This document shows positions 11,708 to 34,064 of a DNA stretch of 34,517 nt, in pieces. The position numbers were made by a program, and so were the translations under genes. The DNA is from Eubacteriales Family XIII. Incertae Sedis bacterium (GTDB taxonomy: Bacteria; Bacillota; Clostridia; Peptostreptococcales; Anaerovoracaceae), in the NCBI GenBank assembly GCA_031266025.1, contig JAISBV010000016.1, positions 1-34,517 of the forward strand, given 5' to 3'. A model generated the notes under the pieces. That model saw only the letters and a program-made list of their open reading frames with translations. It did no database searches and had not been told where the DNA came from. Numbering within the stretch: position 1 is the first letter of the stretch; the number at the start of each line of letters is the position of its first letter.

Positions 11708-12553
11708 ATGGAAGATTGCCGAGAACAGCTTTCACGAGGATCGGAAGCTTTTGTTTTATCCTGTTCCGCCAACATTGTTTCCGCCGGAGCGGCGCGCACG
11801 CCTGAAATGGCGGGTCTTGTGCTGTACGACGCGCCTATCTTGGGCATATCCCGCACGGACGATCCCCTCTTCGACAGGCTCAAGGACTCGGGCGTCGTCG
11901 GCCCCCACGCCATAAGTCCCGACGAATGGCTCCCGGGAGCCCGATCCGTCGTTTCGTTTTTTCTGCCCTACAGTGAACGCGTACGGGCGTCAAACCGCAG
12001 CAACTACGATTGGCCCTCTGTGGAATGGACGCACGGGCGCATTGAGGGCCATGAAATGGTTATAACACTTGCCAGGTATATAATAGGCTTTTTTGAAAAG
12101 CGCGGCGCGCGCGCCATGATGCCGACACTTGATGCGCGCTTTGGGCCAAGGTTCCATTTTGAACGTGAAACGGCGGTAAATCCGCCTCCGAGGTACAACA
12201 GCCGTTGGTCTGAAAGGCATATCGCTTATATCTCGGGGCTTGGCACATTCGGTCTTTCGCGCGGACTTATCACGCGCTGCGGCATGGCCGGGCGCTTGGG
12301 CAGCGTTATAACAGATATGGCGCTTGAACCCGACAGCCGCTCATACGTCGATATCTATGAATACTGCAACCGGTGCGGGATTTGCGCGAAACACTGTCCT
12401 GTGAACGCGATCAGTCTCGAAACCGGCAAAAGTCACCCGCCCTGCTCCGATTTTTTGAGCGCGGTTCTCGAAAAGGAGGGGGAACCCTACTATGGCTGCG
12501 GCAAATGCCAAGTGGGCGTTCCCTGCGAAGCGCGCATTCCGAAGCGTGTTTAA
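11708..12553 (+). CDS. QueG-like double 4Fe-4S protein
   Basis: The 281-residue protein shows the QueG/reductive-dehalogenase-like layout. A central region (WSERHIAYISGLGTFGLSRG) resembles the cobalamin-binding part of epoxyqueuosine reductase. The iron-sulfur motif CNRCGICAKHCP follows, then a second cluster motif CGKCQVGVPCE near the C-terminus. It is about 100 residues shorter than E. coli QueG and lacks the C-terminal HEAT domain, as do many anaerobe homologues of unknown function. It begins 18 bases after the kinase gene, behind AAAAAAGGGGGT, so it is probably cotranscribed with the sensory pair. A true tRNA-modification role is possible but not shown. Confidence 0.75.
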   Translation: MEDCREQLSRGSEAFVLSCSANIVSAGAARTPEMAGLVLYDAPILGISRTDDPLFDRLKDSGVVGPHAISPDEWLPGARSVVSFFLPYSERVRASNRSNYDWPSVEWTHGRIEGHEMVITLARYIIGFFEKRGARAMMPTLDARFGPRFHFERETAVNPPPRYNSRWSERHIAYISGLGTFGLSRGLITRCGMAGRLGSVITDMALEPDSRSYVDIYEYCNRCGICAKHCPVNAISLETGKSHPPCSDFLSAVLEKEGEPYYGCGKCQVGVPCEARIPKRV

Positions 12554-12616: not shown

Positions 12617-13531
12617 TTATATGAGATAGCCGTGCCGAGCAATTTCCTCTCTGACGTATTCAATGAATTTTACAGTAGCCGGACTCAATCGCGTATTCTT
12701 CCTGAAAATCAGTCTGCATTCCGTCGGCGGCAGCTCTGTTTCGCTTTCAAGCGAAAGACTGACGACCCTCCCCTGCGCAATGGCGTTTTCTATGGTACTC
12801 AGCGACAGGATGCCGAGACCAAAGCCGTCTTCCACTATATTGAGCAAAATACTTCCGTCCTCAACCTGAATTCGGTTGCTTGCGTCAATGCCAAGCTGCG
12901 ACAAGAAAACGTTAATCCTTTGGTTGTATCTCGATCCGTTAAGGCAGTTAACAAAAGGAAATCCCAATAAATCATCCACTGTCACGGTTTTTTTATCCGC
13001 CAGTGGATGTGTTTTTGCGCAGAAAAGCGTCATGGGGGTTTTGTAAAGCAGTTCGTAGTCAAAGCAGGGATCGTCTTCCGATTTTTGCTCAATGCCGAAA
13101 TTGACGACGCCGTGCTGCACTAACCGCTTTACCTCCATACTGTTCCCCGCCCTGAAAACAAGAGAAACTTTGGGATTGGCTCGCAGGTAACACGCGGCGA
13201 TCTTACTGAACAACGGTTTGCATACGGAGAGGGCAAATTTCACCTCCCCCCGATTTCCGGCCGTAAGTTCACGCAAATGAGAAACCATTTCCTGAGTCAT
13301 AGCCGAAAAATCGACGGCGTACCGATAGAGCAGCATCCCATCTTCGGTAGGGCGCAATATCCGGCGGTACGGTTGTTCAAACAGCTGTACATTAAGTGTT
13401 TCTTCCAAGCGGTGGATATGGGCGCTGACCGCCGGCTGCGATATCTGCAGATATTGCGCCGCCGCGCGAAAGGATTTTAACTCCATCACGTCTTTGAAAA
13501 TTTGAAGTCCCAAAGGAGAAATATACTCCAC
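12617..13531 (-). CDS. LysR-family transcriptional regulator
   Basis: GTG 13531 is preferred, with AGAGGT 7-8 bases upstream; GTG 13540 overlaps that site. The 304-residue protein has an N-terminal winged HTH (FKDVMELKSFRAAAQYLQISQPAVSAHIHRLEE, cut here by description into the usual LysR helix pair) and a two-lobed substrate-binding domain (about 90-300). It is divergent from the isomerase-TRAP-flavoprotein operon at 13692, and LysR proteins usually control the divergent operon with its substrate as coinducer. That makes it the probable specific regulator of that pathway. Confidence 0.9.
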   Translation of the reverse strand: MEYISPLGLQIFKDVMELKSFRAAAQYLQISQPAVSAHIHRLEETLNVQLFEQPYRRILRPTEDGMLLYRYAVDFSAMTQEMVSHLRELTAGNRGEVKFALSVCKPLFSKIAACYLRANPKVSLVFRAGNSMEVKRLVQHGVVNFGIEQKSEDDPCFDYELLYKTPMTLFCAKTHPLADKKTVTVDDLLGFPFVNCLNGSRYNQRINVFLSQLGIDASNRIQVEDGSILLNIVEDGFGLGILSLSTIENAIAQGRVVSLSLESETELPPTECRLIFRKNTRLSPATVKFIEYVREEIARHGYLI

Positions 13532-13585
13532 CGACCCCACCTCTAAGCATTAAGTTATCGGCTGAAAACCATACCTGTTATTGTT

Positions 13586-13614
13586 ATCATACCATGAATA
13601 AAGTAGAATTGCAA
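13586..13614 (-). promoter_or_regulatory. Promoter of the LysR gene, in the divergent control region
   Basis: On the minus strand TTGCAA (13609-13614) and TATGAT (13586-13591) are separated by 17 bases, 55 bases before the GTG at 13531. The same 160-bp divergent region holds partial dyads (TTATT...AATAA at 13579-13600) and a direct CAGTTAA repeat near 13660 that could bind the regulator. No clear promoter for the plus-strand operon was found, as is common for activator-dependent genes. Confidence 0.5.
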
Positions 13615-13691
13615 ACAAGACGGGCGAACAAAAAAGTCGTCTGTTCCTTAAAGGTTACAGTTAAAAACAGTTAATCAGGAGGCGCACAGTT

Positions 13692-14465
13692 ATGAAATTA
13701 TCAACGAAAGATTTGGGGCCTTACCAACTTTGGCGGTCTAATCAAGGATGGAGAGCAAGAATCGGCGTCATATATCCCGGACCCGGTTGGCACCATATCG
13801 GCGACTTCTATAAGTTGGCGCCAAATGGCGTCGCCGTGGGAGGCATCGGCGTACCGAGACACAAGGATGAGAGCGCGGAGGAAATGTTGCATCTGGATGA
13901 GCAGGTTGTGGAAAAGGCGAAGATGTTCGTCTCCTACAGCCCCGACGTCATCCTGTGGAATTGCACCGCAGGCAGTTTTCTTAAGGGAAAAGACCATGAC
14001 GCGGAACTTATCAATCAGATGGAAGAAGCGACCGGGGGCATCACATGCACTTCCACATCCACTTCGCTGTGCCTTGCGTTCAGAACGACAGACGTCAAAA
14101 AGATAGCCATGTGCACGCCGTATCCGAACGACGTCAATGACGTGGAGAAACGGTATTTTGAGGACAACGGCTTTGAAATTGTCAACTGTATAGGCCTTGA
14201 TTTGGTCGACAACAACATTTTGGCCAACCTTGCGCCAAGTGTGCTGTATAAGTTGGCGCGAACGGCCGACGTCCCCGAGGCGGAGGCGGTATTTATCAGT
14301 TGCACCGGTCTTGACGCGCTGGATGTGATCGACGCTCTTGAACAGGATATAGGCAAACCGGTGTTTACGTCCAATCAGGCCGCCTGTTGGAACGCGTTCC
14401 GTCTGGCAAAGATAGGAGCGCCTATTCAAGGCTACGGTTCCCTGCTGAGCCGGTCGAGAGTGTAA
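13692..14465 (+). CDS. Maleate cis-trans isomerase / arylmalonate decarboxylase / Asp-Glu racemase family protein
   Basis: The 257-residue protein has the two pseudo-symmetric domains of this superfamily, each with a catalytic-type cysteine: Cys 91 in WNCTAGS and Cys 204 in ISCTGLDALDVID. The CTPYPNDV segment (141-148) is also typical of maleate isomerases. Having both cysteines fits isomerase or racemase chemistry better than the single-cysteine arylmalonate decarboxylases. AGGAGG lies upstream of ATG 13692. It is the first gene of an operon with a TRAP transporter and a fumarate-reductase-like pair, so maleate or a related carboxylate isomerised to a reducible form is a reasonable hypothesis. 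Substrate not proven by sequence. Confidence 0.75.
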   Translation: MKLSTKDLGPYQLWRSNQGWRARIGVIYPGPGWHHIGDFYKLAPNGVAVGGIGVPRHKDESAEEMLHLDEQVVEKAKMFVSYSPDVILWNCTAGSFLKGKDHDAELINQMEEATGGITCTSTSTSLCLAFRTTDVKKIAMCTPYPNDVNDVEKRYFEDNGFEIVNCIGLDLVDNNILANLAPSVLYKLARTADVPEAEAVFISCTGLDALDVIDALEQDIGKPVFTSNQAACWNAFRLAKIGAPIQGYGSLLSRSRV

Positions 14466-14510
14466 ACTGCCCGCAGCATGACTACACGGTATTAGCGAGA
14501 TGGGCAGTTT
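14464..14510 (+). promoter_or_regulatory. Inverted repeat at the end of the isomerase gene
   Basis: AAACTGCCC (14464-14472, starting within the stop codon) and GGGCAGTTT (14502-14510) form a perfect 9-bp stem with a 29-nt loop. Only three T residues follow, so it is a weak terminator or an mRNA-processing/attenuation structure before dctP. Confidence 0.45.
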
Positions 14511-14535
14511 GACATGAGAGGAAGTTATTGGGAGT

Positions 14536-14593
14536 GGGTTCAATACCCTACGTTGTGAATAAGGAAGCGCAGCAAACACAGGGTATTGAACCC
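14536..14593 (+). promoter_or_regulatory. 14-bp inverted repeat in dctP leader
   Basis: GGGTTCAATACCCT (14536-14549) and its exact reverse complement (14580-14593) enclose 30 bases, ending 36 bases before the dctP start. It could be an RNA stem that sets the high relative level of binding protein, or a protein-binding dyad. Confidence 0.5.
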
Positions 14594-14629
14594 GTTTGCA
14601 TAATAAACAGACTTTAAGGAGCTGTGGAG

Positions 14630-15682
14630 ATGAAGAGTAAAAAGAGTTTCGCCGCGTGTCTTGCGGCAGTTTTTGTAAGTTTCATTTTTGCCGCCTGCAG
14701 CGGCGAGCAGAGCGTTCCTCCGACGGAAAATACGCCTTCGGAAGATGAATCTGCGTCTGCAACCGAGGTCATCACGCTTAATTGGGTTTCGTTCCGTGCT
14801 TCCAATCATCAGGGTGTTCAGAGTATACAACAGGTGTTCTTTGACAAGATCAATGAACGCACGAACGGGCGGGTAGTCATTGAGTATAAAGGCGGCCCGG
14901 AGGTGATGAGCCCCAGCGATCTCGGCATGGCGATTAAGAACGGCGCCGTCGATGTGGCGGATCTGTACATGGGCGCGTATGCGTCTATTGTTCCCGGAGT
15001 CGGCGGCTGTATGCTGACGCAATATACCCCTATGGAAGAGCGCGAAAACGGCGCATACGACTTTATCGCGCAGATGCATGAGCAGAACGGGATCAAATAC
15101 TTGGGACGCCCCGCGCCTCAAGAGTCAAACTATTTTTATACATACATAAAAGGCAGAAAAGCGCCCGAAACCCAATCGGACATCAGCGCCTTGCGTATCG
15201 GCACCGCAGCCGGATCAAAGGACGCCGTCGCGGCTTGGGGCGTTAACCCCACAAACGTAGCCGTGGCTGAGAACTACGAGGCCCTGCAGAGCGGAATCGT
15301 GGACGCCATTGCCGGACAGCCTATGGAGGGCGCGATCAGCAGCGGTTGGGATGTGATGTGCAACTATGTTATCGATCACCCGTATTACCAATCGACCACC
15401 CTTCTTATTATGAACCTGTCCAAATGGAACAGTCTGCCCGAGGACATTCGGGATATTATTACGGAGTGCGTCATTGAGGGCGAAAATGAGGTTATGGCGT
15501 CGCGCGACATGAAGGAAGCGGAGTATAGGAAGACCATTGAGGGAAATGGCGTCGAATTTATCACACTGCCGCCGGATGTAGCCGATTGGTATCTGACGCA
15601 GGCCTATGAGGGCTCTTGGGCCGCCGAAACCATGAACTACCCCGATGTTGCGCCAAGGCTCAGGGAAATGATTACAAAGTAG
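14630..15682 (+). CDS. dctP: TRAP transporter substrate-binding lipoprotein (DctP family)
   Basis: ATG 14630 has AAGGAG 8 bases upstream; GTG 14624 is too close to it. The 350-residue protein starts with a lipoprotein signal (charged MKSKKS, hydrophobic core, lipobox FAAC followed by S), then a DctP domain. The Arg of SALRIGTAAGS aligns without gaps to the carboxylate-binding Arg of the other DctP in this window, so it should bind a carboxylate. The NYEALQSGIVDAIAGQP segment is a hallmark of the family. It delivers substrate to the DctQ-DctM pair encoded just downstream. Confidence 0.9.
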   Translation: MKSKKSFAACLAAVFVSFIFAACSGEQSVPPTENTPSEDESASATEVITLNWVSFRASNHQGVQSIQQVFFDKINERTNGRVVIEYKGGPEVMSPSDLGMAIKNGAVDVADLYMGAYASIVPGVGGCMLTQYTPMEERENGAYDFIAQMHEQNGIKYLGRPAPQESNYFYTYIKGRKAPETQSDISALRIGTAAGSKDAVAAWGVNPTNVAVAENYEALQSGIVDAIAGQPMEGAISSGWDVMCNYVIDHPYYQSTTLLIMNLSKWNSLPEDIRDIITECVIEGENEVMASRDMKEAEYRKTIEGNGVEFITLPPDVADWYLTQAYEGSWAAETMNYPDVAPRLREMITK

Positions 15683-15725
15683 GCGCTCCGCAGAATTTCG
15701 GTCATTACAGAAGAGGGGTGATATT

Positions 15726-16262
15726 TTGAAAGTCTTTGCCGCGCTGAGTTATGCCTACAATAAGATACTTGACGCCCTGTATTTCGCAGTGGGTATCGCG
15801 TTGGTGTTCGTCATGCTGACCGTTACCGTCGGTATTATAACAAGATATTTTTTTTCTGTATCTCTCGGTTGGAGCGCGGAGATCAGCGGGTATGTCCTTA
15901 TACCGTTGGCGCTTCTTGCCGCCCCGAAAATGCTCAGGGACGGCGGACACATCAAAGTTGATCTAATATCCAACGCGGTAAGCCCCAAGATCAATTCATT
16001 TCTCGTTATCATAGGGAGCGTCTTGGGCGCCGCCGTGTTTTCCCTGCTGACCTTGGCAGGGTCAAAGATAACGATAGATATGCTTGAAACAGGTTATCGC
16101 ACGGATACATTCCTTCGTGTGCCGAGATTTATATTGATCGGAATTTCCGTACTCGGCTTATTGCTCATGACCGTCCAATTTTTAAGGAATATTATCAAAA
16201 CCGGCGGCGTACTCACAGAGAAACAAAAGCCGCCGTCCGAAGAATACGTGGAAAATAGGTGA
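15726..16262 (+). CDS. dctQ: TRAP transporter small membrane subunit (DctQ)
   Basis: The 178-residue protein has four predicted membrane helices and the family segment LGWSAEISGYVLIPLALLAA followed by RDGGHIKVDLI. The start is TTG 15726 behind GAGGGGTGAT. DctQ bridges the binding protein and the DctM channel. It lies between dctP and dctM in the standard P-Q-M order. Confidence 0.9.
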   Translation: MKVFAALSYAYNKILDALYFAVGIALVFVMLTVTVGIITRYFFSVSLGWSAEISGYVLIPLALLAAPKMLRDGGHIKVDLISNAVSPKINSFLVIIGSVLGAAVFSLLTLAGSKITIDMLETGYRTDTFLRVPRFILIGISVLGLLLMTVQFLRNIIKTGGVLTEKQKPPSEEYVENR

Positions 16263-16277
16263 AAAAGGAGAAAGAAA

Positions 16278-17591
16278 TTGGATTGGCCGATTATACTGAT
16301 TCTGCTTTTCGCCGGTCTGATCATTCTCATGCTGACGGGAATGCAGATATTCTTGGCGTTTATGATCATAAATTTGGTGGGCGTCGTCGTGCTGTTCGGC
16401 TTCAACAACGGAATGACGCAATTCACGCTCAGTATCTCCAGTTCGCTGAATTCCTTCGTCTTGGTTCCGATCCCGATGTTTATGCTGCTCGGAGAGATTC
16501 TGTTCCGAACGGGCGTGGCCGGAAAGGTAGTTGAAGTCATAGACCAATGGATGGGCAAAATGCCCGGAAGACTCGGGCTCATGTCTGTATTGGCGGGTAC
16601 GGTGTTCGCTGTGCTCACGGGAACCAGCGCCGCGTCCACCGCCCTGCTCGGCACAATGCTGACGCCGGAGATGGAAAAACAGGGATACAAAAAATCCATG
16701 AGCCTTGGGCCTATACTGGGCAGCGGCGGTCTGGCGATTCTGATCCCGCCCAGCAGCCTTGCCATAATGCTCGGCGCGATCGGCGAGATATCCATCGGCA
16801 AACTTCTCATAGCCATCATTGTTCCGGGGCTCTTGGTGGCGGCCCTGTGCGCGGGCTACATTATTCTTCGCTGCGTTATAGACCCGTCCCAAGCGCCGCC
16901 GTACCGAGTGGAACCCGTATCAATATCAAAAAAGCTGAAAGATACCGTTATTTACGTCCTTCCCCTGACGCTTGTGGTTTTCCTTGTCATCGGAGTCGTC
17001 ATACTCGGCGTCGCCACACCGACTGAGGCGGCCGCCAGCGGCTGCGTAGGCGCTTTTATTCTGGCGGCGCTGTACAGAAAATTAAACCTTGAAGTCATCC
17101 ATGAGGCCATTCTTGACACAGTCAAAAATTCAGCCATGATACTTATCATCATTGCAGCATCGACTACGTTCAGCCAGATACTGTCATTCAGCGGCGCCGG
17201 CAGAGGTTTTGTGAACGCCGTAACTGTACTTGACGTCGCTCCGATGGTCATTATCGCCCTTATGATGGGCGTTATAGCGGTCATGGGCGGATTTATGTCT
17301 TTGGTGTCTATTATGATGATCTGTCTGCCTATTTTTATGCCTGTGGTTCGCGGCCTCGGTTTCAGCGACGTTTGGTTTGGCGTTATATTCCTGATCAATA
17401 TCGAAATGGCCATGCTGACGCCGCCCCTCGGCATGAATCTTTACGTCATGGCGGGCGTGGCGCCGAAAGACACAACAATGATGGATATCATTAAGGCCGC
17501 CGTTCCTTTCATGGTGATCGACGTCCTTTCGATCATCATTATCATGTTTGTACCGCAGATCGCGCTTTGGCTCCCAAGCCTGATGACTTGA
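16278..17591 (+). CDS. dctM: TRAP transporter large membrane subunit (DctM)
   Basis: The 437-residue, 12-helix protein is of normal length for DctM. It shows the family's LTGTSAASTALLGTMLTPEM, GSGGLAILIPPSSLAIMLG and VATPTEAAASG segments. It carries out sodium-driven substrate uptake with DctQ. The start is TTG 16278, with AAGGAG 7 bases upstream. Its last bases lie about 40 from the flavoprotein gene, consistent with one transcript joining transport and enzymes. Confidence 0.93.
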   Translation: MDWPIILILLFAGLIILMLTGMQIFLAFMIINLVGVVVLFGFNNGMTQFTLSISSSLNSFVLVPIPMFMLLGEILFRTGVAGKVVEVIDQWMGKMPGRLGLMSVLAGTVFAVLTGTSAASTALLGTMLTPEMEKQGYKKSMSLGPILGSGGLAILIPPSSLAIMLGAIGEISIGKLLIAIIVPGLLVAALCAGYIILRCVIDPSQAPPYRVEPVSISKKLKDTVIYVLPLTLVVFLVIGVVILGVATPTEAAASGCVGAFILAALYRKLNLEVIHEAILDTVKNSAMILIIIAASTTFSQILSFSGAGRGFVNAVTVLDVAPMVIIALMMGVIAVMGGFMSLVSIMMICLPIFMPVVRGLGFSDVWFGVIFLINIEMAMLTPPLGMNLYVMAGVAPKDTTMMDIIKAAVPFMVIDVLSIIIIMFVPQIALWLPSLMT

Positions 17592-17632
17592 TAATGCAGT
17601 ATTAAAAAGCAAACAAAACGGAGCGTATGATT

Positions 17633-19321
17633 ATGGAGAATACGATTTCAACAGATGTATTGGTTATCGGCGGCGGCGGGGCGGCGGTAACGGCCGCAGT
17701 CAGCGCGGCGGCTTTGGGAGCGGATGTGATCTTGGCGTCTAAAGAACCTATCGGATATGGGGATACGCGGATATCAATGGGGATGATCGCAAACCCGTGT
17801 ATGAAGGAAGACGACAGTGAGAAAGAGTTCTGCAATGATCTTCTTGAATGCGGAGAACATTTAAACAATCCTGAAATCGCGTGGATTTTAGCGAAAAAGG
17901 CTCACAGAGCAAGGGAAATCTCAGAAGGGTTCGGTCACCTTTTTCAACGGGATAAGGACGGACTGATCGGCCCCGGCGTCGCTTTTTTCAGCGGAGGGCA
18001 TTCAAAGGCGAGGACGCTTCGCTCCCCGCCCTCAAACGGAATAGGAATAGGAAACGCCCTGCGCGCGGCCGCCGTCCGCAGCGGCGTCCGTGTATTGGAG
18101 GAGACGGCGGCGCACAAACTGCTCAAAGACGGGGATCGGGTCAACGGCGCCGTTTGTTATGACTTGGCGCGCGGCGGGGCAATCATTATTTCGGCCGGAG
18201 CCGTTATACTTGCGACCGGGGGCGCGGGTTGGCTGTATTATCCGCATACCGATTGTATGTCCGGAGCCTGCGGCGACGGTTATTCCCTCGCGTATGAGGC
18301 GGGAGCGGAATTGACAGACATGGAGCAGGTGCAGTTTGTCCCCTTCGCGCTCACACACCCGGCCCCGCTGTGCGGCATTTTTTTCGGCGATCCCGCGTCG
18401 GCGGGGCCGGCCGGCGTCATTCGCAATGCTCATGGGGAGGCAGTGCTGCATAATGTTCACAACCGTACCCGCGCGCAGGTGACCGGGCTAATGTCCGAGC
18501 TTTTGTCGCGGGGAGAAGGCACCGAGCACGGCGGGTTACTCTTGGATTTGAGTGCGAACCTTTTGACCGAAGACGGACGGCGCATGTGGGAGACGCGCAA
18601 CAGACTCGGGCAGTTTGACGCCGTGCGCGCCGCGTACGGTGAAAAAGCTTACCGTTGGGAAGAATCGTTGGACGTGGCGCCTACCGCCCACTATAATATG
18701 GGCGGCGTCAAAGTGGATACAGAGACGCAAAGCAGTGTAAAGGGCCTGTTTGCCGCCGGTCAAGTCATGGGCGGAGTTTTCGGCGGCGACCGCTTGGGTT
18801 CGGCTTCCCTGACAGAGGTGTTTGTGTTTGGGGAAATCGCCGGGCAGGAGGCGGCGCGCGCGGCAAAAGGGGCACGTCCGGCACGCCCGGCGGACGCGAA
18901 ACGCGCTGCCGGCGAATTGACCGGCCTTATCGGACGTTGCGGAAAATACACGCCGATCCAATTGAAGCGACGTCTTCAGGACGTGATGTGGAATAAAGTG
19001 GGAATACTTCGGTATGAGACAGGTATGAAAGAAGCCTTGGCGGAGTTTGCTCTTATAGAAGCGCAGGCGCGGGATATCCGCACCTGCGCTTCACGTACGT
19101 TTAACAGGGATGCGTTGGATGTGATCGAACTGCGCCATATGTTGCGATGTGCGCTGATGATCACGCGCTCGGCTTTGACGCGCCGAGAAACAAGAGGCGC
19201 TCATTTGCGCCCGGACTGTCCCAATAGGGATGATGAAAACTTTGCCCGCAACATAACGGTCAGGGAAAGTGACGGCGAAATGAAAATCTCTAAACCGGAA
19301 ACGGGGAAATGCCATGGCTGA
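17633..19321 (+). CDS. SdhA/FrdA-superfamily FAD-dependent oxidoreductase
   Basis: ATG 17633 has GGAG 9 bases upstream. The 562-residue protein has an N-terminal dinucleotide motif (VLVIGGGGAAVTAA), the Frd-type PTAHYNMGG with His 353, GGDRLGSASL with Arg 387, an NRTR stretch (277-280) at the position of the catalytic Arg, and the C-terminal RGAHLRPD. Where fumarate reductases have QFHPTG and TEGxRGEGG it reads QFVP (234-237) and FGDPASAGP. The residue that carries covalent FAD in FrdA is not His here (GDTRISMG). It therefore looks like a related enoate or carboxylate oxidoreductase with altered substrate contacts and non-covalent FAD. It overlaps the iron-sulfur gene by 8 bases. Confidence 0.85.
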   Translation: MENTISTDVLVIGGGGAAVTAAVSAAALGADVILASKEPIGYGDTRISMGMIANPCMKEDDSEKEFCNDLLECGEHLNNPEIAWILAKKAHRAREISEGFGHLFQRDKDGLIGPGVAFFSGGHSKARTLRSPPSNGIGIGNALRAAAVRSGVRVLEETAAHKLLKDGDRVNGAVCYDLARGGAIIISAGAVILATGGAGWLYYPHTDCMSGACGDGYSLAYEAGAELTDMEQVQFVPFALTHPAPLCGIFFGDPASAGPAGVIRNAHGEAVLHNVHNRTRAQVTGLMSELLSRGEGTEHGGLLLDLSANLLTEDGRRMWETRNRLGQFDAVRAAYGEKAYRWEESLDVAPTAHYNMGGVKVDTETQSSVKGLFAAGQVMGGVFGGDRLGSASLTEVFVFGEIAGQEAARAAKGARPARPADAKRAAGELTGLIGRCGKYTPIQLKRRLQDVMWNKVGILRYETGMKEALAEFALIEAQARDIRTCASRTFNRDALDVIELRHMLRCALMITRSALTRRETRGAHLRPDCPNRDDENFARNITVRESDGEMKISKPETGKCHG

Positions 19322-19976
19322 AAACATTCACGTTGAGATAATGCGTTTTGACCCGAAAACCGATCCCGAGCCGGTTCGGCGTGTATACAGTGTGCGCAAT
19401 GAGAAAAAAAATACGGTACTCGGCGCACTTTTAACCATTCGGGAACACGAGGATTCCACGCTTGCCTTCCGTTACGGTTGCCGCTGCAAACACTGCGGTT
19501 TGTGCGCCGTCCGAGTTGACGGTCTGCCGAAAATGGCATGCCGCACTTATGTGAGAAACGGTATGCTCATAGAGCCCCTCGGAAAATTGCCTGTGCTGCG
19601 GGATCTTGTCACAGAACGAGAAGGCTTGTTGACGATATACAAAAAACACGGCGTCTTCTTGGAAGAAGGCGCGGATTCGGACGTTCCGCTCCGGGAGGAC
19701 GGTATGGGAACGTCACTTAAGCGATGCTTGGACTGTTTGGCCTGTTTTTCCACCTGCTGTAACTATGAGCACGGAAATGCCGGATTTATGGGGCCGTATT
19801 TTTTTGTAAAGACAGCTCAACTGCTTTTTGATCCCCGCGACCGGCAAGATCGAAGGGCGCAGGCCAAAGCAATGGGAATTGAAAAATGCCGGACTTGCTC
19901 CCATAATTGCTATTGTATTAATGGGATTGATATCTACCGACACGCAATCATGAAATTGCTTGGTAATGACGTCTGA
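19314..19976 (+). CDS. SdhB/FrdB-like iron-sulfur subunit with unusual cluster ligands
   Basis: The 220-residue protein has an N-terminal 2Fe-2S domain with the exact spacing C56-x4-C61-x2-C64-x11-C76, plus an extra Cys 58. The C-terminal domain has C138-x2-C141-x2-C144-x3-C148 (then C149), fitting one 4Fe-4S cluster. The last motif reads C192-x2-C195-x3-C199-x-C201, not the SdhB C-x5-C-x3-C-P, and both usual prolines after cysteine are missing. It would pass electrons to or from the overlapping flavoprotein. No membrane anchor gene follows, so the partner is presumably soluble (ferredoxin, flavin or NADH enzyme) or encoded elsewhere. Confidence 0.85.
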   Translation: MAENIHVEIMRFDPKTDPEPVRRVYSVRNEKKNTVLGALLTIREHEDSTLAFRYGCRCKHCGLCAVRVDGLPKMACRTYVRNGMLIEPLGKLPVLRDLVTEREGLLTIYKKHGVFLEEGADSDVPLREDGMGTSLKRCLDCLACFSTCCNYEHGNAGFMGPYFFVKTAQLLFDPRDRQDRRAQAKAMGIEKCRTCSHNCYCINGIDIYRHAIMKLLGNDV

Positions 19977-19987
19977 AACGCGCGGGT

Positions 19988-20176
19988 TACAGTTCAGAGG
20001 TTGTTTGCGTACTAAATGTTTTAGAGCATTTAGTTTGTTAAAATCCAAAGTACGGTCATTCCACCGGCTGCCTTGGGCCGGTGGAATCCAAAAAAGCAAT
20101 ATAGATTCCGGGACAAGCCCGGAATGACGAATTTATGAACCATCATTAGCCTGTCCGGGCTAACCTCTGAACTGTA
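19988..20176. repeat. MITE-like repeat, copy 2 (complete)
   Basis: The 189-bp element is bounded by TACAGTTCAGAGGTT (19988-20002) and its exact reverse complement (20162-20176). It carries internal palindromes (ATTCCACCGGC...GCCGGTGGAAT and GATTCCGGGACAAGCCCGGAATGACG-type arms). It lies between the iron-sulfur gene and the aldehyde dehydrogenase operon and encodes nothing convincing. Confidence 0.8.
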
Positions 20177-20334: not shown

Positions 20335-21756
20335 ATGGCATTGAATTATGAGGCGTATGTGGCGGATATTGTCGCGAAGGGACGCGAGGCGCAGCGTATA
20401 GCCGAGGATTATGATCAAAAGAGGGTGGATGATCTGACGGAGGCTGTTGCCTACGCGCTTACTGTTCCCGAAACCGCTCTGAAATTCGGCGAGATGCTCG
20501 CCCGAGAGAGCGGCATGGGCATAGCCGCAGACAAACAGGCCAAGATGTTCAGCAAGGTCAAAGGTACTTACGCGCAGATGAAAGGACGCCCGTCCGTCGG
20601 TCTCTGTGATGTCGATGAAAAAATGGGCATAGAAAAATACGCCAAATCCATGGGCGTGGTCGGGGCCGTTATTCCCGTTACAAACGGCGAGGCCACTCCC
20701 GTCGTTAAGTCGCTCATGGCGCTTAAAACGAGAAACGCGATCATACTTGCGCCGCATCCGAAGGCAAAGAATACAAATATGGCCGTCGCCGAGCTGATTC
20801 GGAGCGTACTTCAAAAATACGGCGCGCCCAAGGATCTCGTGCAAGCCGTCGATCCTGAATACGTTTCCGTCGAATGCTCGCAGCAGATCATGAAACAAGT
20901 TGATTTTATAATCGCTACGGGCGGAACGCCAATGGTGCGGCAGGCATATTCATCGGGGAATCCTGCGGTAGGCGTCGGTACGGGCAACGTCGTCTGCATA
21001 GTGGACGGCACGAGCGATCTCGATGCGGCCGCCGATATGATTATACGCTCCAAGACGTTCGACCACGCCACCTCATGTTCAACGGAAAACAGTATAATCG
21101 TGCTTGAAAGCGCTTATGAGGCTTTTACGGACGCCATCTCAAAGCAAGGCGCGTATATCGCCAAAGAAGGCACGCCCGAAAAGGAAAAAATCGTAAAGGC
21201 GCTGTGGCCCGAAACGCCGCAAAACCACGATCTGAACAGGCACATCGTGGCGCAGTCAGCCGCAAAAATAGCGGAAATAGCAGGCGTCGACGCCCCGAGC
21301 GCCAAGATTATCCTCGTTGAGGAAAACGGCGGATACGGCAACGAATTCCCGCTGACGGGCGAAAAACTGTCTCCTGTAGCCGCGCTTCGCAAGGCGAAAG
21401 ATTTCGACGACGCCGTAAAACAGACGCTGAACATACTCGAATATCAGGGCAAAGGCCACAGCATAGGCATACATACGTCGCTGAACGAGCGTGTTACGCT
21501 GCTCGGCGAGAAAATACCCGTCTGCAAGGTATGCGTCAATTTGCCGCAGAGCCTGTCAAATTCCGGTTCATGGAACTGCGGTTTTCCCATGTCCATGACG
21601 CTCGGATGCGGCACATGGGGGCATAACAGCATATCTTGGAACGCTACGTATAAGGATCTTCTGAATTTCACATATGTGGCGCGTCCCATTCCGTCTTGGC
21701 AGCCCAAGGATGAGGAGCTGTTCAGCGATGAGGTGCGCGCGGCGTTCGCGCGGTGA
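20335..21756 (+). CDS. CoA-acylating aldehyde dehydrogenase, sulfoacetaldehyde-dehydrogenase (SauS)-like
   Basis: The ATG at 20335 has AAGGAGAT just upstream; an in-frame extension to 20179 runs through the MITE and leader and is not real. The 473-residue protein has the acylating ALDH layout, with the catalytic Cys 248 in TSCSTENS and the segments GVVGAVIPVTN (108-118) and GVGTGNVVC. It lacks the N-terminal targeting peptide of microcompartment PduP/EutE enzymes. It should oxidise an aldehyde with CoA and NAD(P)+ to an acyl-CoA. Length and overall sequence recall SauS (sulfoacetaldehyde to sulfoacetyl-CoA), but succinate-semialdehyde-type substrates are not excluded. It is first of a three-gene unit with a transaminase and a decarboxylase. 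Confidence 0.8.
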   Translation: MALNYEAYVADIVAKGREAQRIAEDYDQKRVDDLTEAVAYALTVPETALKFGEMLARESGMGIAADKQAKMFSKVKGTYAQMKGRPSVGLCDVDEKMGIEKYAKSMGVVGAVIPVTNGEATPVVKSLMALKTRNAIILAPHPKAKNTNMAVAELIRSVLQKYGAPKDLVQAVDPEYVSVECSQQIMKQVDFIIATGGTPMVRQAYSSGNPAVGVGTGNVVCIVDGTSDLDAAADMIIRSKTFDHATSCSTENSIIVLESAYEAFTDAISKQGAYIAKEGTPEKEKIVKALWPETPQNHDLNRHIVAQSAAKIAEIAGVDAPSAKIILVEENGGYGNEFPLTGEKLSPVAALRKAKDFDDAVKQTLNILEYQGKGHSIGIHTSLNERVTLLGEKIPVCKVCVNLPQSLSNSGSWNCGFPMSMTLGCGTWGHNSISWNATYKDLLNFTYVARPIPSWQPKDEELFSDEVRAAFAR

Positions 21757-21823
21757 CGGATTCCGAGGCCCAACATGCAGCTTCGCCGCATTTCTCCGCA
21801 CACTGCGTGTGCTACGCTGTCCG

Positions 21824-21856
21824 TTTTGCCTACCGAAGCAAAGCTTCGGGGCAAAA
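21824..21856 (+). other. Strong hairpin between aldehyde dehydrogenase and aminotransferase genes
   Basis: TTTTGCC-TA-CCGAAGC, an AAA loop, then GCTTCGG-GGCAAAA form a 14-bp stem with a 2-base bulge. No T-run follows, so it is more likely an mRNA stability or processing element within the operon than a terminator. The rest of 21757-21909 shows no gene. Confidence 0.5.
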
Positions 21857-21909
21857 AGGCAATGCAGACGGCGGAATAACATACAGATGAGCAAAAGGGG
21901 GTGTATACA

Positions 21910-23238
21910 ATGTCAATTATCAGCGAAATGAGCAAGAAATACAACCTGCACTCGTGGAGCGCGCAGGACAAGTTGAATCCAATGACTGTAACAAAGGCGG
22001 AAGGCATATACTTCTGGGACGATGAAGGCAACAAATATTACGACATGTCTTCGCAGCTCGTGAATTCAAATCTCGGCCACGGAAACAAGGCCGTCGTCAA
22101 CGCGATAAAGGCGCAGGCGGACAAGATAGCCTTCATAGGGCCGGGCTACGCGCTCGACGTCCGATCCGAAGCCGCGCGAAAGCTTATCGAATTCGCGGGC
22201 CCGCACTTCAAAGGCGGCAAGGTGTTTTTCACGAACGCCGGTGCGGAAGCCAATGAAAACGCGATAAAATTCGCTAAAGCCTTTACGGGCCGGTGGAAGA
22301 TATTCTCGATGTACAGGTCATACCATGGCGCAACATTCGGCGCGTCGGCTTTGACCGGCGAGCCGCGGCGTTGGATCGCGGAACCCGGCGTACCCGGTTT
22401 CATACATTTTGACGGCCCTTACCCGTACAGAGCGCCCAAAGCGTGCAAATTCGATTCCGAAGAGGATATCACGGCATTCTATCTCGAGCTGCTCGAAAAT
22501 CAAATGAAATACGAAAATCCGCAGGATATAGCGGCGGTATTTGTCGAAACGGTCGTCGGTTCGAACGGCGTGCTGATTCCGCCCGCAGGCTATCTGAACG
22601 GCGTCCGGGAGCTGTGCAACAGGTACGGCGTCATGCTCGTATGCGACGAAGTTATGACCGGATTTTACAGAACCGGAAGCAAATTCGCGTTCATGCAGTT
22701 TGACGTGAAACCCGATATCATAACGTTTGCCAAGGGCTCTACCTGCGGCTACATCCCGCTCGGAGGCGTCATAGTCAAACAGGAGATCGCCGAATATTTC
22801 AATGATCGCAAGATGTATAACGGACTTACCTACAACGCTCATCCGATGGGCTGCGCGGCGGCCGTCGCCACCATAGACGAATACGTACGTCTCGGCATAG
22901 AGGAAAATGTCAAAAAGCAGGGCAAGCTGCTCGCGTCCGGTCTCGACGAGCTTGAACGAAAACATAAATCCGTCGGCGAGACGCGGCATATCGGACTTTT
23001 CGCGATGATCGAACTCATAAAGGACAAGGCGAATCGCGAACCGCTCACGCCGTTCAACAGCGATCCCGAAGGCTGCATGGCGAAGATATGCGGCATGCTG
23101 AAGGCGGAGGGATTCGTCACATATTCTCACGAAAATATGCTTATCATAGCGCCGCCTCTGATCATCACGGAACAGGAACTTCGCGATGCCCTGCGTATAG
23201 CAGACAAGGTGCTTGACGACGTGGACGCGATGATTTGA
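21910..23238 (+). CDS. Class III aminotransferase, taurine:2-oxoglutarate aminotransferase-like
   Basis: ATG 21910 follows AAAAGGGGGTG. The 442-residue protein is a fold-type I class III transaminase: FFTNAGAEANENAIKFAK (about 106-123), the YHGAT turn (138-142), VCDEVMTGFYRTG with the PLP-contacting Asp 246, and the Schiff-base Lys 275 in FAKGSTCGYIPLGG. The opening LHSWSAQDKLNPMTV and SSQLVNSNLGHG resemble proteins annotated as taurine-2-oxoglutarate transaminase. Class III enzymes act on terminal amines, giving an aldehyde, which suits the acylating dehydrogenase upstream. Putrescine, cadaverine or GABA-type amines remain possible substrates. Confidence 0.8.
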   Translation: MSIISEMSKKYNLHSWSAQDKLNPMTVTKAEGIYFWDDEGNKYYDMSSQLVNSNLGHGNKAVVNAIKAQADKIAFIGPGYALDVRSEAARKLIEFAGPHFKGGKVFFTNAGAEANENAIKFAKAFTGRWKIFSMYRSYHGATFGASALTGEPRRWIAEPGVPGFIHFDGPYPYRAPKACKFDSEEDITAFYLELLENQMKYENPQDIAAVFVETVVGSNGVLIPPAGYLNGVRELCNRYGVMLVCDEVMTGFYRTGSKFAFMQFDVKPDIITFAKGSTCGYIPLGGVIVKQEIAEYFNDRKMYNGLTYNAHPMGCAAAVATIDEYVRLGIEENVKKQGKLLASGLDELERKHKSVGETRHIGLFAMIELIKDKANREPLTPFNSDPEGCMAKICGMLKAEGFVTYSHENMLIIAPPLIITEQELRDALRIADKVLDDVDAMI

Positions 23239-23252
23239 ACGGCGCCCGGTGT

Positions 23253-24725
23253 ATGAACATGAAAAAAGACCAATCAAAAACTCCCCTCTTCGACGCAGTC
23301 ACGAATTTCGTTTCGAAGAACCCGACGCCGTTTTTTATCCCGGCTCACAAGATGGGGCGCGGCATCGACCCGCGATGGCTCGATTTTGCGGGTGAGAATA
23401 TATTCAAGATGGATCTGAGCGAAGTCAACGGATTAGACGACTTGCACGAAGCGCGGGGCGCGATATCGGAAGCGCAGGACTTGGCTGCGGACGCCTTCGG
23501 AGCGGATCACAGTTATTTTCTCATAAACGGCACATCCTGCGGCATAGTAGCGGCGATATGCACAGTCGCTTCAGAAGGACAGAAGATCATAGTTCCGCGC
23601 AACGCGCACAAGTCCGTCGTCTTCGGTCTCATAACAAGCGGCGCGATTCCCGTATACATAAGCGCGGAAATCCACCGAGAGAAGGGACTTTTGGGCGGCG
23701 TAAGCAAGGACAAGCTCGACGCGCTGTACGCCGAAAATAAGGACGCTAAGGGCGTATTTGCGGTCAGCCCTTCGTATCACGGCGTATGCTGCGATATGCA
23801 AGGCTTGATCGACGTCACGCACGAAAGGGGTGGGATATTCATTGCCGACGAAGCGCACGGCAATCATGTTTATTTTAACGAAAAACTGTCGCGGGGCGCG
23901 CTTGCGCTCGGCGCCGACTGCGCATGTCAGAGCATTCACAAGATGTCAGGTTCGCTGACGCAGAGTTCGTTGCTGCACGTAAAGGGCGGTCGCATGAATC
24001 TCGGCCGTCTGAAATCCAACCTGCAAATGACGCAGAGTACGAGTCCGTCATACATACTCCAAGTTTCGCTCGACCTTGCGAGAAGCCGCATGGCGACGCA
24101 GGGACGCGACATACTCGAACGCCTGATCATCATGTCGAACGCGGCGCGCAAAGAACTGTCCGCCTTGCCGGGTATAGAAGTCTTGGGCGACGATCTGATC
24201 GGCGAGGCCGAAATCGCGGGCTATGATCCCGTCCGTCTCGTCATTTCCGCGCGCAAACTCGGTATTGACGGCTACACGCTCTACCGTATCTTGAGGGATC
24301 GGTACAACATAGAGAGCGAATTCGGGGATTACTTCTACACGGTCTGCGTTATGGGCGTCGGTTCCGAGCAAGAAGACGTCGACAGGCTGATTTTCGCAAT
24401 AAAGGATATCTCAGCCGGGTATAAAGGTCAGTGCAAACCCTTGTCATGGGACGAAGCGCTCCCGCCCACACCGCCAATGATCATAACGCCGCGGGCCGCG
24501 CATTTTTCCGAACGTACTTTCGTTCACAGGAACGAAGCCAAGGGACGCGTCAGCGCGCAAATGATTGTGCCGTATCCTCCCGGTATTCCCGTACTCTGTC
24601 CGGGTGAACTGATTACGGAGGAAATATGCGACTTTCTGGACGGATTTATAAGGAGCGGGCGGCATTTTCACGGTTCGGAAAGCGAGAATCAAGACAGTAT
24701 AGCGGTCGTGAGCGAACGAAAATAG
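23253..24725 (+). CDS. Orn/Lys/Arg-type PLP-dependent amino-acid decarboxylase
   Basis: The start is taken as ATG 23253, 14 bases after the aminotransferase stop, with no clear ribosome site; a TTG at 23235 overlapping that stop is possible, so translation may be coupled. The 490-residue protein has the major Orn/Lys/Arg decarboxylase domain with DEAHG (199-203) and the PLP Lys 230 in QSIHKMSGSLTQSS. A C-terminal domain ends with PYPPGIPVLCPGE, a family signature. Length matches the short Bacillus SpeA/YaaO class, without the N-terminal wing domain. It would supply the amine used by the transaminase. The natural amino acid (Arg, Lys, Orn or, less conventionally, cysteate) cannot be told. Confidence 0.85.
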   Translation: MNMKKDQSKTPLFDAVTNFVSKNPTPFFIPAHKMGRGIDPRWLDFAGENIFKMDLSEVNGLDDLHEARGAISEAQDLAADAFGADHSYFLINGTSCGIVAAICTVASEGQKIIVPRNAHKSVVFGLITSGAIPVYISAEIHREKGLLGGVSKDKLDALYAENKDAKGVFAVSPSYHGVCCDMQGLIDVTHERGGIFIADEAHGNHVYFNEKLSRGALALGADCACQSIHKMSGSLTQSSLLHVKGGRMNLGRLKSNLQMTQSTSPSYILQVSLDLARSRMATQGRDILERLIIMSNAARKELSALPGIEVLGDDLIGEAEIAGYDPVRLVISARKLGIDGYTLYRILRDRYNIESEFGDYFYTVCVMGVGSEQEDVDRLIFAIKDISAGYKGQCKPLSWDEALPPTPPMIITPRAAHFSERTFVHRNEAKGRVSAQMIVPYPPGIPVLCPGELITEEICDFLDGFIRSGRHFHGSESENQDSIAVVSERK

Positions 24726-28810: not shown

Positions 28811-28881
28811 ATAATGAAATCTCCTCTCTGATTTCTGCGCGACGGTTATTTGCGTATTCGCTTTCATGATTACCGACCGGT

Positions 28882-29051
28882 TACTGTTCAGAGGTTGTCT
28901 GCGTAATAAATGTTTTAGGGCATTTAGGTTGTTAAAATCCAAAAGTACGGTCATTCCGGGCTTGTCCCGGAATCCAAAAATATTATATGGATTCCGGGAT
29001 AAACCCAGAATGACGGAAAAAGTATCAAATCCGGAGTACCTCTGAACAGTA
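28882..29051. repeat. MITE-like repeat, copy 4 (complete)
   Basis: The 170-bp element has perfect terminal inverted repeats, TACTGTTCAGAGGT (28882-28895) and its exact complement (29038-29051). Internally CATTCCGGGCTTGTCCCGGAATCC and GGATTCCGGG/CCCAGAATG-type palindromes recur. It lies in the copA-hxlR divergent region and gives copA a false upstream reading frame. Confidence 0.85.
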
Positions 29052-30830: not shown

Positions 30831-31931
30831 TTATTTTCTGTTTGACGTATTTGCGGAAACATTTTGGTTGGGTCTGTTGAGATATTCCTTGAACAGGCGC
30901 GTATGTGGCGGCTTAATACCGAACAGGCGGCACGCGTTGCCTCCAAGGATCAAATTCAAATCATCCTGCGGAATATTCAACCTGCCAAGTTCTCTGAGAC
31001 TCCATCCGTATATATCGACTTGATGCGAAGGAGGCCCCAAGTTTACATTTTGACTGCAATATGTTTCCGGGACACAACCGGGCATCCATGTCTGCGGCGT
31101 ACAGGACGCGCCCCAATCCGTTCCCCAAAGAAGCTTTTCGGGCCCGATATTGGGATCCTTGAGAGGCTTTTCGTAGAGCTCCGCCCACCATTGCCCGCAT
31201 TCAATATATATATTGTGATGCGAAGAAGCTACATTGAGACAGTCCTCATAATACTTTGTGTAATATCCGCTGCCTTCAATACCGCCGTGCGCCAGAATAA
31301 TGGGGACATCCGGATAATAGTACGCGACCTCATGTGCGTGAAGCGGATTGGCCCAAGAATCTTCATAATTTCCCTGGATTCGCGCCAAGTTCGCCGCGGC
31401 CGCGTAGCCGGACGGAAAGCCTGTATGGTATTGCGCGATTACTTTGTACTTTCTGCACAATTCCATATACCGGCATATCTGTTCCAACTTTTCGTTCCAG
31501 CTTATCCTCTTCCTTTCGGGATGACGGTCGCGCGGAATACCCTCCGCTATGCCTTTGTACCTGCCGGTCTCGAGACATGTCTCTATTTCTCTCAGTGAAT
31601 CCTCTATGTTCCACGCCTTCTCGCCTGTCAGGGATTTTCGCTGCGTTTCCACATCCCACGCCATAGTGACAAATCTGTCGGGATGATTTTCGACGATCTG
31701 CAGATCAATCTCATTTGTCATCGCAAATGCCGGGAAAATCACAGCCACGTCCACGTCATAGCGATCCATATGATAGAGAAGTCTCTCGGAATTGTCGTAT
31801 ACGGTCGCGACGGACATGCCGCCGCTCAAAGTCGCATAATCGGCCTTAAGCCCTTTCTCTTGGAACTTGAACGCGTGTCTTTGCGCGTGCACATGCGTGT
31901 CCACAGTAAAAATGCCTTTTGCAATACCCAT
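30831..31931 (-). CDS. Amidohydrolase-2 family metal-dependent hydrolase or decarboxylase
   Basis: ATG 31931 fits AGGTGAG better than the GTG at 31940, which overlaps it. The 366-residue protein has the TIM-barrel amidohydrolase signature DTHVH (11-15), later metal-ligand-type histidines in QYHTGFP and LAHGG, and the closing Asp in LWGTDWG. Proteins of this family include gamma-resorcylate and aminocarboxymuconate-semialdehyde decarboxylases and various lactone or amide hydrolases. It lies in an operon with an SDR oxidoreductase and a TRAP transporter, so it probably acts on an imported carboxylate. Substrate not recognisable. Confidence 0.8.
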   Translation of the reverse strand: MGIAKGIFTVDTHVHAQRHAFKFQEKGLKADYATLSGGMSVATVYDNSERLLYHMDRYDVDVAVIFPAFAMTNEIDLQIVENHPDRFVTMAWDVETQRKSLTGEKAWNIEDSLREIETCLETGRYKGIAEGIPRDRHPERKRISWNEKLEQICRYMELCRKYKVIAQYHTGFPSGYAAAANLARIQGNYEDSWANPLHAHEVAYYYPDVPIILAHGGIEGSGYYTKYYEDCLNVASSHHNIYIECGQWWAELYEKPLKDPNIGPEKLLWGTDWGASCTPQTWMPGCVPETYCSQNVNLGPPSHQVDIYGWSLRELGRLNIPQDDLNLILGGNACRLFGIKPPHTRLFKEYLNRPNQNVSANTSNRK

Positions 31932-31970
31932 GATACTCACCTTTCTTTACAAACCGAACCCAAGGAATGC

Positions 31971-32006
31971 GTATCCCCGTCTGCGCCTCTGCGCAAACGG
32001 GGATAC
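31971..32006. other. Long hairpin between SDR and amidohydrolase genes
   Basis: GTATCCCCGT and ACGGGGATAC enclose an inner stem TGCGC-CTCT-GCGCA, giving 15 paired bases with one mismatch. No T-run follows in the direction of transcription. It is probably an mRNA stabiliser or partial attenuator within the operon. Confidence 0.55.
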
Positions 32007-32028
32007 ACGCCGCCGCAAGGTTTTATTT

Positions 32029-32841
32029 TTAGATGACTTTTTCCGGCACTATCGCGTCAGCGCCGGCCTTCACCCACATATCTTCATTGTTTTGGCTGCA
32101 GTAGCGACCGCCCGCAAGCGGTATGTCTATGCCCGTCATATATCCGGCCGCTTCGGACGCGAAAAACACGATGGGTTTCGCCAAGTCCTCGGGTGTGCCC
32201 AAACGATGCAGCGCCATAGTGTTCACCAACTTGTCATAATCGCGCGCTATGTGACGTTTGCTCATGGCTGTGGCCACCATGCCGGGGCTGTAGCTCAACA
32301 CACGGATTCCGTACGGAGCAAGCTCGGCCGCGAATGTTCTTGTAAAGCTTGCGATGCCGCTTTTCGCCGCCGCGTAAACCGAATTGCCGGCCAAAGGCAT
32401 ATAGACCGCCATCGACGCCGCGTTGATGAAAACGCCGTACTTTTGTTTCTTCATCTGCCGCGCCACTGTCTTTGTAACGAAGAATGTGGATTTCAGATTT
32501 GTATCTATCGTTTTAAACCAATCTTCCTCTTCAACATCTTCTATCATCTTCGCGTATCCGAACCCGGCGTTGTTCACCCAGATATCGACGCGGCCGTGCG
32601 CCGCCACGATATCATTGACGCATTTCTCTACCGCGGCGTTATCCAAAACATCAAGCGCATACGGAATCAGCGTAACACCCTTATCCTTCGCTTCGGCAGC
32701 CGCTTCGTCCAGCATTTCCTGTCTGCGTCCCAAGATATAAGTGGTCGCGCCCTCGGCGGCAAACTCCGCAGCCACCGCTTTGCCTATGCCCGTACCGCCG
32801 CCCGTCACAACCGCGACGCGGCCCTTCATGCCAAGATCCAT
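32029..32841 (-). CDS. Short-chain dehydrogenase/reductase (SDR) family oxidoreductase
   Basis: The 270-residue classical SDR has the cofactor motif TGGGTGIG (14-21), NNAG, the catalytic Ser-Tyr-Lys set (NAAS...VYAAAKSG) and the closing segment ASEAAGYMTGIDIPLAGG. ATG 32841 follows GGAGGAAAACT. It reduces or oxidises a hydroxyl/carbonyl with NAD(P). With TRAP genes upstream and an amidohydrolase downstream on the same strand it is probably one step in degrading an imported hydroxy- or keto-acid. Confidence 0.88.
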   Translation of the reverse strand: MDLGMKGRVAVVTGGGTGIGKAVAAEFAAEGATTYILGRRQEMLDEAAAEAKDKGVTLIPYALDVLDNAAVEKCVNDIVAAHGRVDIWVNNAGFGYAKMIEDVEEEDWFKTIDTNLKSTFFVTKTVARQMKKQKYGVFINAASMAVYMPLAGNSVYAAAKSGIASFTRTFAAELAPYGIRVLSYSPGMVATAMSKRHIARDYDKLVNTMALHRLGTPEDLAKPIVFFASEAAGYMTGIDIPLAGGRYCSQNNEDMWVKAGADAIVPEKVI

Positions 32842-32906
32842 AGTTTTCCTCCTATAAGAACAGTAACTCCGTCAACATCACAGTCCGAGCAGAAGTATAC
32901 TGCTTG

Positions 32907-33977: not shown

Positions 33978-34064
33978 CACACTTCCCGTCCTTTCCAAAA
34001 CAAATTATAAAAATTACAACAACTGTCTACTGTATTTTTCGCTCACGCGAGCGGAAAAACCGGT

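Follow-up and report, generated by a model that had tools for sequence, protein, structure and literature searches.

An accessory operon combining a two-cysteine racemase-type enzyme, a TRAP transporter and a fumarate reductase-related flavoprotein/iron-sulfur pair in an Anaerovoracaceae bacterium

Members of the two-cysteine aspartate/glutamate racemase superfamily are mostly racemases. Among their relatives, the arylmalonate decarboxylases (AMDases) are distinguished by a glycine, G74, which replaces the second cysteine of the racemases, and their genes adjoin those for TRAP, TTT and ABC transporters and mandelate racemases, including in proteobacteria (PMC4996985). In the fumarate reductase superfamily, urocanate reductase (UrdA) acts on a monocarboxylate by means of the triad Arg411, His520 and Arg560, with Tyr373 replacing the fumarate-binding histidine and Ala387 the relay glutamate (PMC10882135), a precedent for action on a monocarboxylate by an enzyme of this superfamily with such a triad. 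Relatives of both enzymes are encoded together in a stretch of 34,517 nucleotides (the window; positions 1 to 34,517 of contig JAISBV010000016.1, assembly GCA_031266025.1) from a Eubacteriales Family XIII. Incertae Sedis bacterium of the Anaerovoracaceae. Here, a gene for a two-cysteine enzyme is followed by genes for the TRAP transporter DctPQM, a flavoprotein of the SdhA/FrdA superfamily (Fp) and an SdhB-like iron-sulfur subunit (FeS), with a divergent LysR-family regulator gene upstream. We tentatively read the set as an accessory operon under LysR control that serves the catabolism of, or respiration on, a single imported carboxylic acid other than a C4-dicarboxylate, a plausible interpretation that nevertheless falls somewhat short of being probable.

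The flavoprotein and iron-sulfur subunits

When Fp was aligned with the FrdA, SdhA and NadB proteins of E. coli MG1655, its residues R282, H355 and R389 corresponded to FrdA R287, H355 and R390, which comprise the catalytic arginine and the first carboxylate site. Equivalents of FrdA H232, T234, E245, R248, E250 and D288, which make up the second carboxylate site and the proton relay, are missing, with V238, F240, P256 and an alanine standing in the places of H232, T234, E245 and R248. The histidine that links FAD covalently in FrdA (H44) is likewise replaced, by D46. These substitutions recur across the Fp family (H232 to V/L/I, T234 to F, E245 and E250 to P, R248 to A/V, D288 to A, and H44 to D or N wherever this position could be aligned), although in the stretch around T244-R248 the alignment contains gaps and varies from run to run, so that these columns are less sure than those of H232, R287, H355 and R390. 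In the phylogenetic tree, Fp groups with 14 relatives (15 proteins from several phyla) in a single clade that excludes FrdA, SdhA and NadB and has a support of 99/99. The best NCBIfam profile is TfrA, with a score of 328 bits against a cut-off of 718, while the NadB profile scores 225 bits against 453. Only the FAD_binding_2 and Succ_DH_flav_C domains were detected with Pfam, and no separate flavin mononucleotide (FMN) domain was found. An AlphaFold (AF2) model of Fp, with a predicted local distance difference test score (pLDDT) of 64, matches the flavoprotein subunits of complex II, which supports the fold only. Judged by these residues, the SdhA/FrdA-like label given to Fp in a preliminary description of the locus holds for the fold and superfamily and does not extend to the substrate site.

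The cysteines of FeS that would bind the 2Fe-2S cluster (Cys 56, 61, 64 and 76) and the 4Fe-4S cluster (Cys 138, 141, 144 and 148) are all retained in the alignment with FrdB and SdhB. At the third site (Cys 192, 195, 199 and 201) the three usual cysteines are joined by an extra one at the position of FrdB V207, and this residue is present in all family members that could be aligned through the third-cluster region. A cysteine at V207 in FrdB converts the 3Fe-4S cluster to a 4Fe-4S cluster, and the same arrangement suggests that the third cluster of FeS is of the 4Fe-4S type. The subunit comprises 220 amino acids and its match to the TfrB profile (150 bits against a cut-off of 385) covers positions 3-212 of 488. 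As had been proposed in the preliminary description, no gene for a membrane anchor subunit occurs in the operon, the next gene being a SauS-like one beyond a palindromic repeat. The extra cysteine and the lack of an anchor gene together favour a soluble electron partner.

The Fp-FeS family is a distinct and widespread branch of the fumarate reductase superfamily, apparently without an assigned function, and is considered the most interesting part of the operon. No named function for this branch was found in the profile libraries and literature searched. Automatic annotation would name the genes fumarate reductase or succinate dehydrogenase and maleate isomerase, with which the residues disagree, and since the losses extend through a clade of several phyla, such annotations would mispredict respiration in uncultured lineages.

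The two-cysteine enzyme, the transporter and the proposed pathway

The two catalytic-type cysteines of the first enzyme lie at positions 91 and 204, as previously noted, and align with those of the maleate isomerase MaiA. C91 also aligns with AMDase G74 and C204 with AMDase C188. The cysteine at the G74 position places the enzyme outside the AMDases and gives it the two-base arrangement of a racemase or isomerase. Its scores fall below the NCBIfam cut-offs for both EutA (120.7 bits, cut-off 318) and AMDase (115.2 bits, cut-off 225). The closest solved relative is an arylmalonate decarboxylase (PDB 3ixm, 86 bits), while maleate isomerases reach 36-61 bits, and the motif at the first cysteine is CTAGSF, as opposed to CLVAIM in MaiA. 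The earlier assignment to the maleate isomerase family, correct as to the two cysteines, is thus loose as a family label, the Pfam match being to Amdase, and a cautious reading of the sequence would be a racemase or isomerase of some acid.

All three transporter proteins pass the Pfam gathering scores. The closest PDB entries to DctP are 4mnc/4mni at 96 bits, the next scoring 48. 4MNI is probably a structure with bound benzoylformate; a literature search on the two entries returned nothing relevant.

The suggestion that the substrate might be maleate or another C4-dicarboxylate was not borne out. Such a pathway, for maleate or citraconate, would consist of TRAP import of maleate, its conversion to fumarate by the two-cysteine enzyme and reduction to succinate by Fp-FeS as a soluble fumarate reductase. 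C4-dicarboxylates are often carried by TRAP systems, the enzyme has the pair of cysteines that characterises maleate isomerases and racemases, and Fp belongs to the FrdA/SdhA superfamily with a fumarate reductase, TfrA, as its best profile. The TfrA score is, however, far under its cut-off, the second carboxylate site and proton relay are gone from Fp and its whole clade, and among the PDB relatives of the two-cysteine enzyme the maleate isomerases rank with the lower-scoring ones and have a different first motif. This route is therefore regarded as very improbable.

On the preferred reading, that of a different carboxylic acid, the genes form a single pathway. The sequence itself establishes what the genes are, which residues and cluster ligands are kept or lost, that the operon has no anchor gene and that Fp-FeS is a conserved unit, while we infer the class of substrate, the direction of the reaction, the electron partner and the unity of the pathway. 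The acid would be imported by DctPQM, after which the two-cysteine enzyme would take off and put back the proton at its alpha-carbon, such that the racemised or isomerised acid suits the next enzyme. Fp-FeS would then perform two-electron redox chemistry next to the carboxylate, either reduction of a C=C bond or desaturation, or oxidation of a C-N or C-O bond, with H355 and R389 binding the carboxylate, R282 acting as the general acid/base and hydride passing to or from a non-covalent FAD. Through the 2Fe-2S cluster and two further clusters, both probably 4Fe-4S, electrons would be exchanged with a soluble carrier such as, perhaps, ferredoxin, and not with quinone. Carboxylate-type uptake, an isomerase or racemase step and two-electron redox through Fe-S clusters, as predicted in the preliminary description, are all in keeping with these data, and no described pathway with exactly this gene set was found, in line with its remark that none was known. 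The hydrophobic replacements in Fp, the kinship to AMDase and the UbiD- and mandelate-racemase-family neighbours in the sister clusters (see below) prompt the guess that the side chain of the substrate is aryl or alkenyl.

Distribution, sister clusters and borders of the operon

No match to Fp was found at E 1e-60 in 60 relatives, among them four congeners, and a search of 390 further genomes of the class at E 1e-75 was likewise negative. The operon is accessory, as shown by the lack of Fp matches in the four congeners. Relatives of Fp occur in seven of the 397 other genomes of the phylum (41-52% identity), and a scan of GTDB contigs yielded eight loci (46-50%) in Rokubacteria, Poribacteria, Abyssobacteria, Syntrophobacteria and unplaced bacteria; the neighbouring open reading frames (ORFs) at the two high-GC Rokubacteria loci were mis-called and were left out of the interpretation. 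A FeS gene follows Fp at every examined locus that reaches past Fp, except one (L006) with no FeS match, while at another (L011) the contig ends inside Fp. The Pfam matches of the operon genes are not chance ones, and the Fp-FeS pair is retained in other phyla. Racemase or TRAP genes are found beside Fp at none of the eight loci in other phyla and none of the seven in the same phylum, so that conservation of the whole set beyond one genome was not observed, each half being conserved alone. Two recurrent modules, racemase-TRAP and Fp-FeS, are thus joined in the operon studied.

Several further genomes of the phylum, but not the majority, also have the racemase gene next to TRAP genes. A second racemase-DctPQM cluster (L042) is located on contig C10 of the same genome, its racemase, DctP and DctM showing 63%, 39% and 50% identity, together with genes for a divergent UbiD-family decarboxylase and a FAD_oxidored-family protein. 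Contig C57 of the same genome (L044, L112) carries genes for a fused TRAP permease, a mandelate-racemase-family protein, a CCG protein, a FAD-linked oxidase, an Fp relative (about 31-33%) and an FeS. These sister clusters suggest that the bacterium can process more than one acid of this kind, and that the acids may be aromatic or alkenyl. In two other genomes, G688 (L047) and G617 (L049), a racemase-TRAP group lies in a same-strand cluster with a FrdA-superfamily flavoprotein of another branch and a 2Fe-2S protein. By sequence reading alone, L047 also contains acyl-CoA dehydrogenase- and electron-transfer-flavoprotein-like genes. A scan of viral contigs revealed no DctP or racemase, and no Fp relative was found on plasmids at E 1e-60. 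The plasmid relatives of the racemase all have less than 60% identity and occur in hydantoinase, fatty-acid-type and other contexts with no common pathway.

Several observations weigh against a single pathway for one acid. Among the genomes searched, the whole set is confined to one, and the neighbours of Fp-FeS elsewhere are unrelated, such as the OrtAB thiolase (G607) and a symporter of the sodium:sulfate/citrate type (G476), so that the substrate of Fp-FeS may differ from that of the racemase. The Fp model is only moderate, with pLDDT below 50 in the pocket regions, and DctP folded alone gave a model (pLDDT 37) too poor for fold comparison. The racemase-TRAP pathway and an independent Fp-FeS might accordingly be adjacent through recent insertion only, as each module occurs alone elsewhere, a different flavoprotein follows the second racemase-TRAP copy on C10 and the congeners lack Fp. 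The gap of only 35 bp between DctM and Fp on the same strand and the renewed same-strand clustering of racemase-TRAP with a FrdA-superfamily flavoprotein and 2Fe-2S protein in G688 and G617 argue against this explanation, which is considered unlikely.

A branch of the preferred reading would be an amino- or hydroxy-acid racemase coupled to Fp-FeS as an acid dehydrogenase acting on a C-N or C-O bond. Fp-FeS would then be a remote counterpart of L-aspartate oxidase (NadB) that passes its electrons to Fe-S clusters. This route would accord with the prevalence of racemases in the two-cysteine superfamily, with the shared superfamily and triad of NadB and with the position of Fp-FeS in G607 after OrtAB, which act in 2-amino-4-oxopentanoate thiolysis. 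On the other hand, the NadB equivalents of H232, T234, E245 and R248 are also lost in Fp, the position of NadB E121, a substrate residue, is not Glu in the Fp clade, and the operon includes neither an amino-acid transporter nor a deaminase; this more specific route is considered unlikely. The gene order in G607 (L068:8402-12771), OrtA-OrtB-Fp-FeS, is in itself a possible tie of the Fp family to 2-amino-4-oxopentanoate metabolism.

Taking the family as a whole, Fp-FeS may represent a soluble, anchorless and possibly ferredoxin-linked family, found in several phyla, for carboxylates other than fumarate and succinate, and in this operon it may belong to a complete pathway of import, racemisation and redox chemistry that acts on a substrate not recognised so far. 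This wider proposal is possible and is advanced with reserve. The operon, with its importer, racemase and redox enzyme, provides a small testable set for finding the substrate of this oxidoreductase family.

An ORF check of the window found every gene listed in the preliminary description open at its coordinates, and these, with the Pfam matches, agree with the divergent LysR gene and unbroken gene set reported there (Table 1). On the + strand the order is racemase-dctP-dctQ-dctM-Fp-FeS. The genes up to Fp are separated by 158, 43, 15 and 35 bp, the Fp and FeS genes overlap by 8 bp, and plausible ribosome-binding sites precede most of them. The divergent promoter region contains weak sigma-70-like matches on the + strand at 13562 and 13581 and on the - strand near 13615, which are no proof of function. 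Only DctM and the general SdhB-type and DctP models pass NCBIfam cut-offs, the equivalog-level cut-offs being otherwise missed.

Table 1. Features of the operon and its flanks (window coordinates).
Feature	Coordinates	Strand	Basis
LysR-family regulator, divergent	12617..13540	-	Pfam LysR_substrate 6e-36, HTH_1 1e-18
Divergent promoter region between LysR and racemase genes, 151 bp	13541..13691		Sequence inspection
Two-cysteine Asp/Glu-racemase-superfamily enzyme (C91, C204)	13692..14465	+	Pfam Amdase PF17645 7e-32
DctP, TRAP solute-binding lipoprotein, GTG start	14624..15682	+	PF03480 1e-21
DctQ, TRAP small permease, TTG start	15726..16262	+	PF04290 8e-24
DctM, TRAP large permease, TTG start	16278..17591	+	PF06808 2e-72; TIGR00786 293 bits, cut-off 268
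Fp, SdhA/FrdA-superfamily flavoprotein	17627..19321	+	Pfam FAD_binding_2 1e-50, Succ_DH_flav_C 2e-28
FeS, SdhB-like subunit	19314..19976	+	Fer2_3 (PF13085) 4e-25
Dispersed palindromic repeat copy, 3' edge of gene set	19986..20130		64 genome matches

The palindromic repeat at the 3' edge folds into two strong hairpins (z -4.0), and its best other copies in the genome are 90% identical over about 145 bp. A second copy in the window is located at 28879-29015, and a further one (C10:31177-31259) precedes the paralogous racemase gene by about 230 bp. Beyond the repeat follow genes for a SauS-like acylating aldehyde dehydrogenase (477 bits, cut-off 600), whose best start lies at about 20335 and has a good ribosome-binding site, and for a class-III aminotransferase closest to taurine:2-oxoglutarate aminotransferase (6jix, 439 bits); a short Orn/Lys/Arg-decarboxylase-like protein is also encoded within 20335-24725. 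The dehydrogenase-aminotransferase pair recurs in all four congeners with 83-89% conservation and persists in three other genera, and none of the contigs carrying it there has a match to the operon genes, which marks it as a separate unit. Its inclusion in the operon as part of a sulfonate pathway was ruled out, given this conservation without the operon genes and the intervening repeat; the pair may serve the degradation of taurine or another omega-amino acid. Mis-binning of the contig was likewise ruled out, as the genus has matches both to CopA (74-81%) and to the SauS-aminotransferase pair. Just upstream of the LysR gene, a 4Fe-4S protein (11708-12553) weakly resembles the models for reductive dehalogenase and epoxyqueuosine reductase. 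Near the window edge, the - strand encodes an Amidohydrolase_2 protein and a second DctP (30831-34515), probably another TRAP-linked catabolic cluster.

Comparison with described systems

The two-cysteine enzyme shares with AMDase and EutA the family and the C188 equivalent, as well as the proximity of TRAP genes published for some AMDases (PMC4996985). It differs from AMDase in having Cys at G74, Ala at S76 and Thr at G189, and in scores under the cut-offs. With MaiA it has the two catalytic-type cysteines in common, whereas overall similarity is lower and the motif at the first cysteine is different. The TfrAB proteins provide the best NCBIfam profiles for both redox subunits and similarly lack an anchor, but Fp and FeS score under half of the respective cut-offs, and the CCG-containing C-terminal half of TfrB is missing from FeS. 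E. coli FrdAB and complex II share the flavoprotein fold, the R287-H355-R390 triad, the 2Fe-2S and 4Fe-4S ligands and the two-subunit gene order, while Fp-FeS differs from FrdAB in the loss of the FAD-linking His and of H232/T234/E245/R248, in its lack of anchor genes and in its extra third-cluster cysteine. UrdA belongs to another branch: it contains FMN as well as FAD, its FMN domain is anchored in the membrane and it lacks an SdhB-like partner. Compared through the FrdA alignment, it resembles Fp in the carboxylate-binding triad, one Arg of which is the general acid, and in having other residues at the second carboxylate site (PMC10882135).

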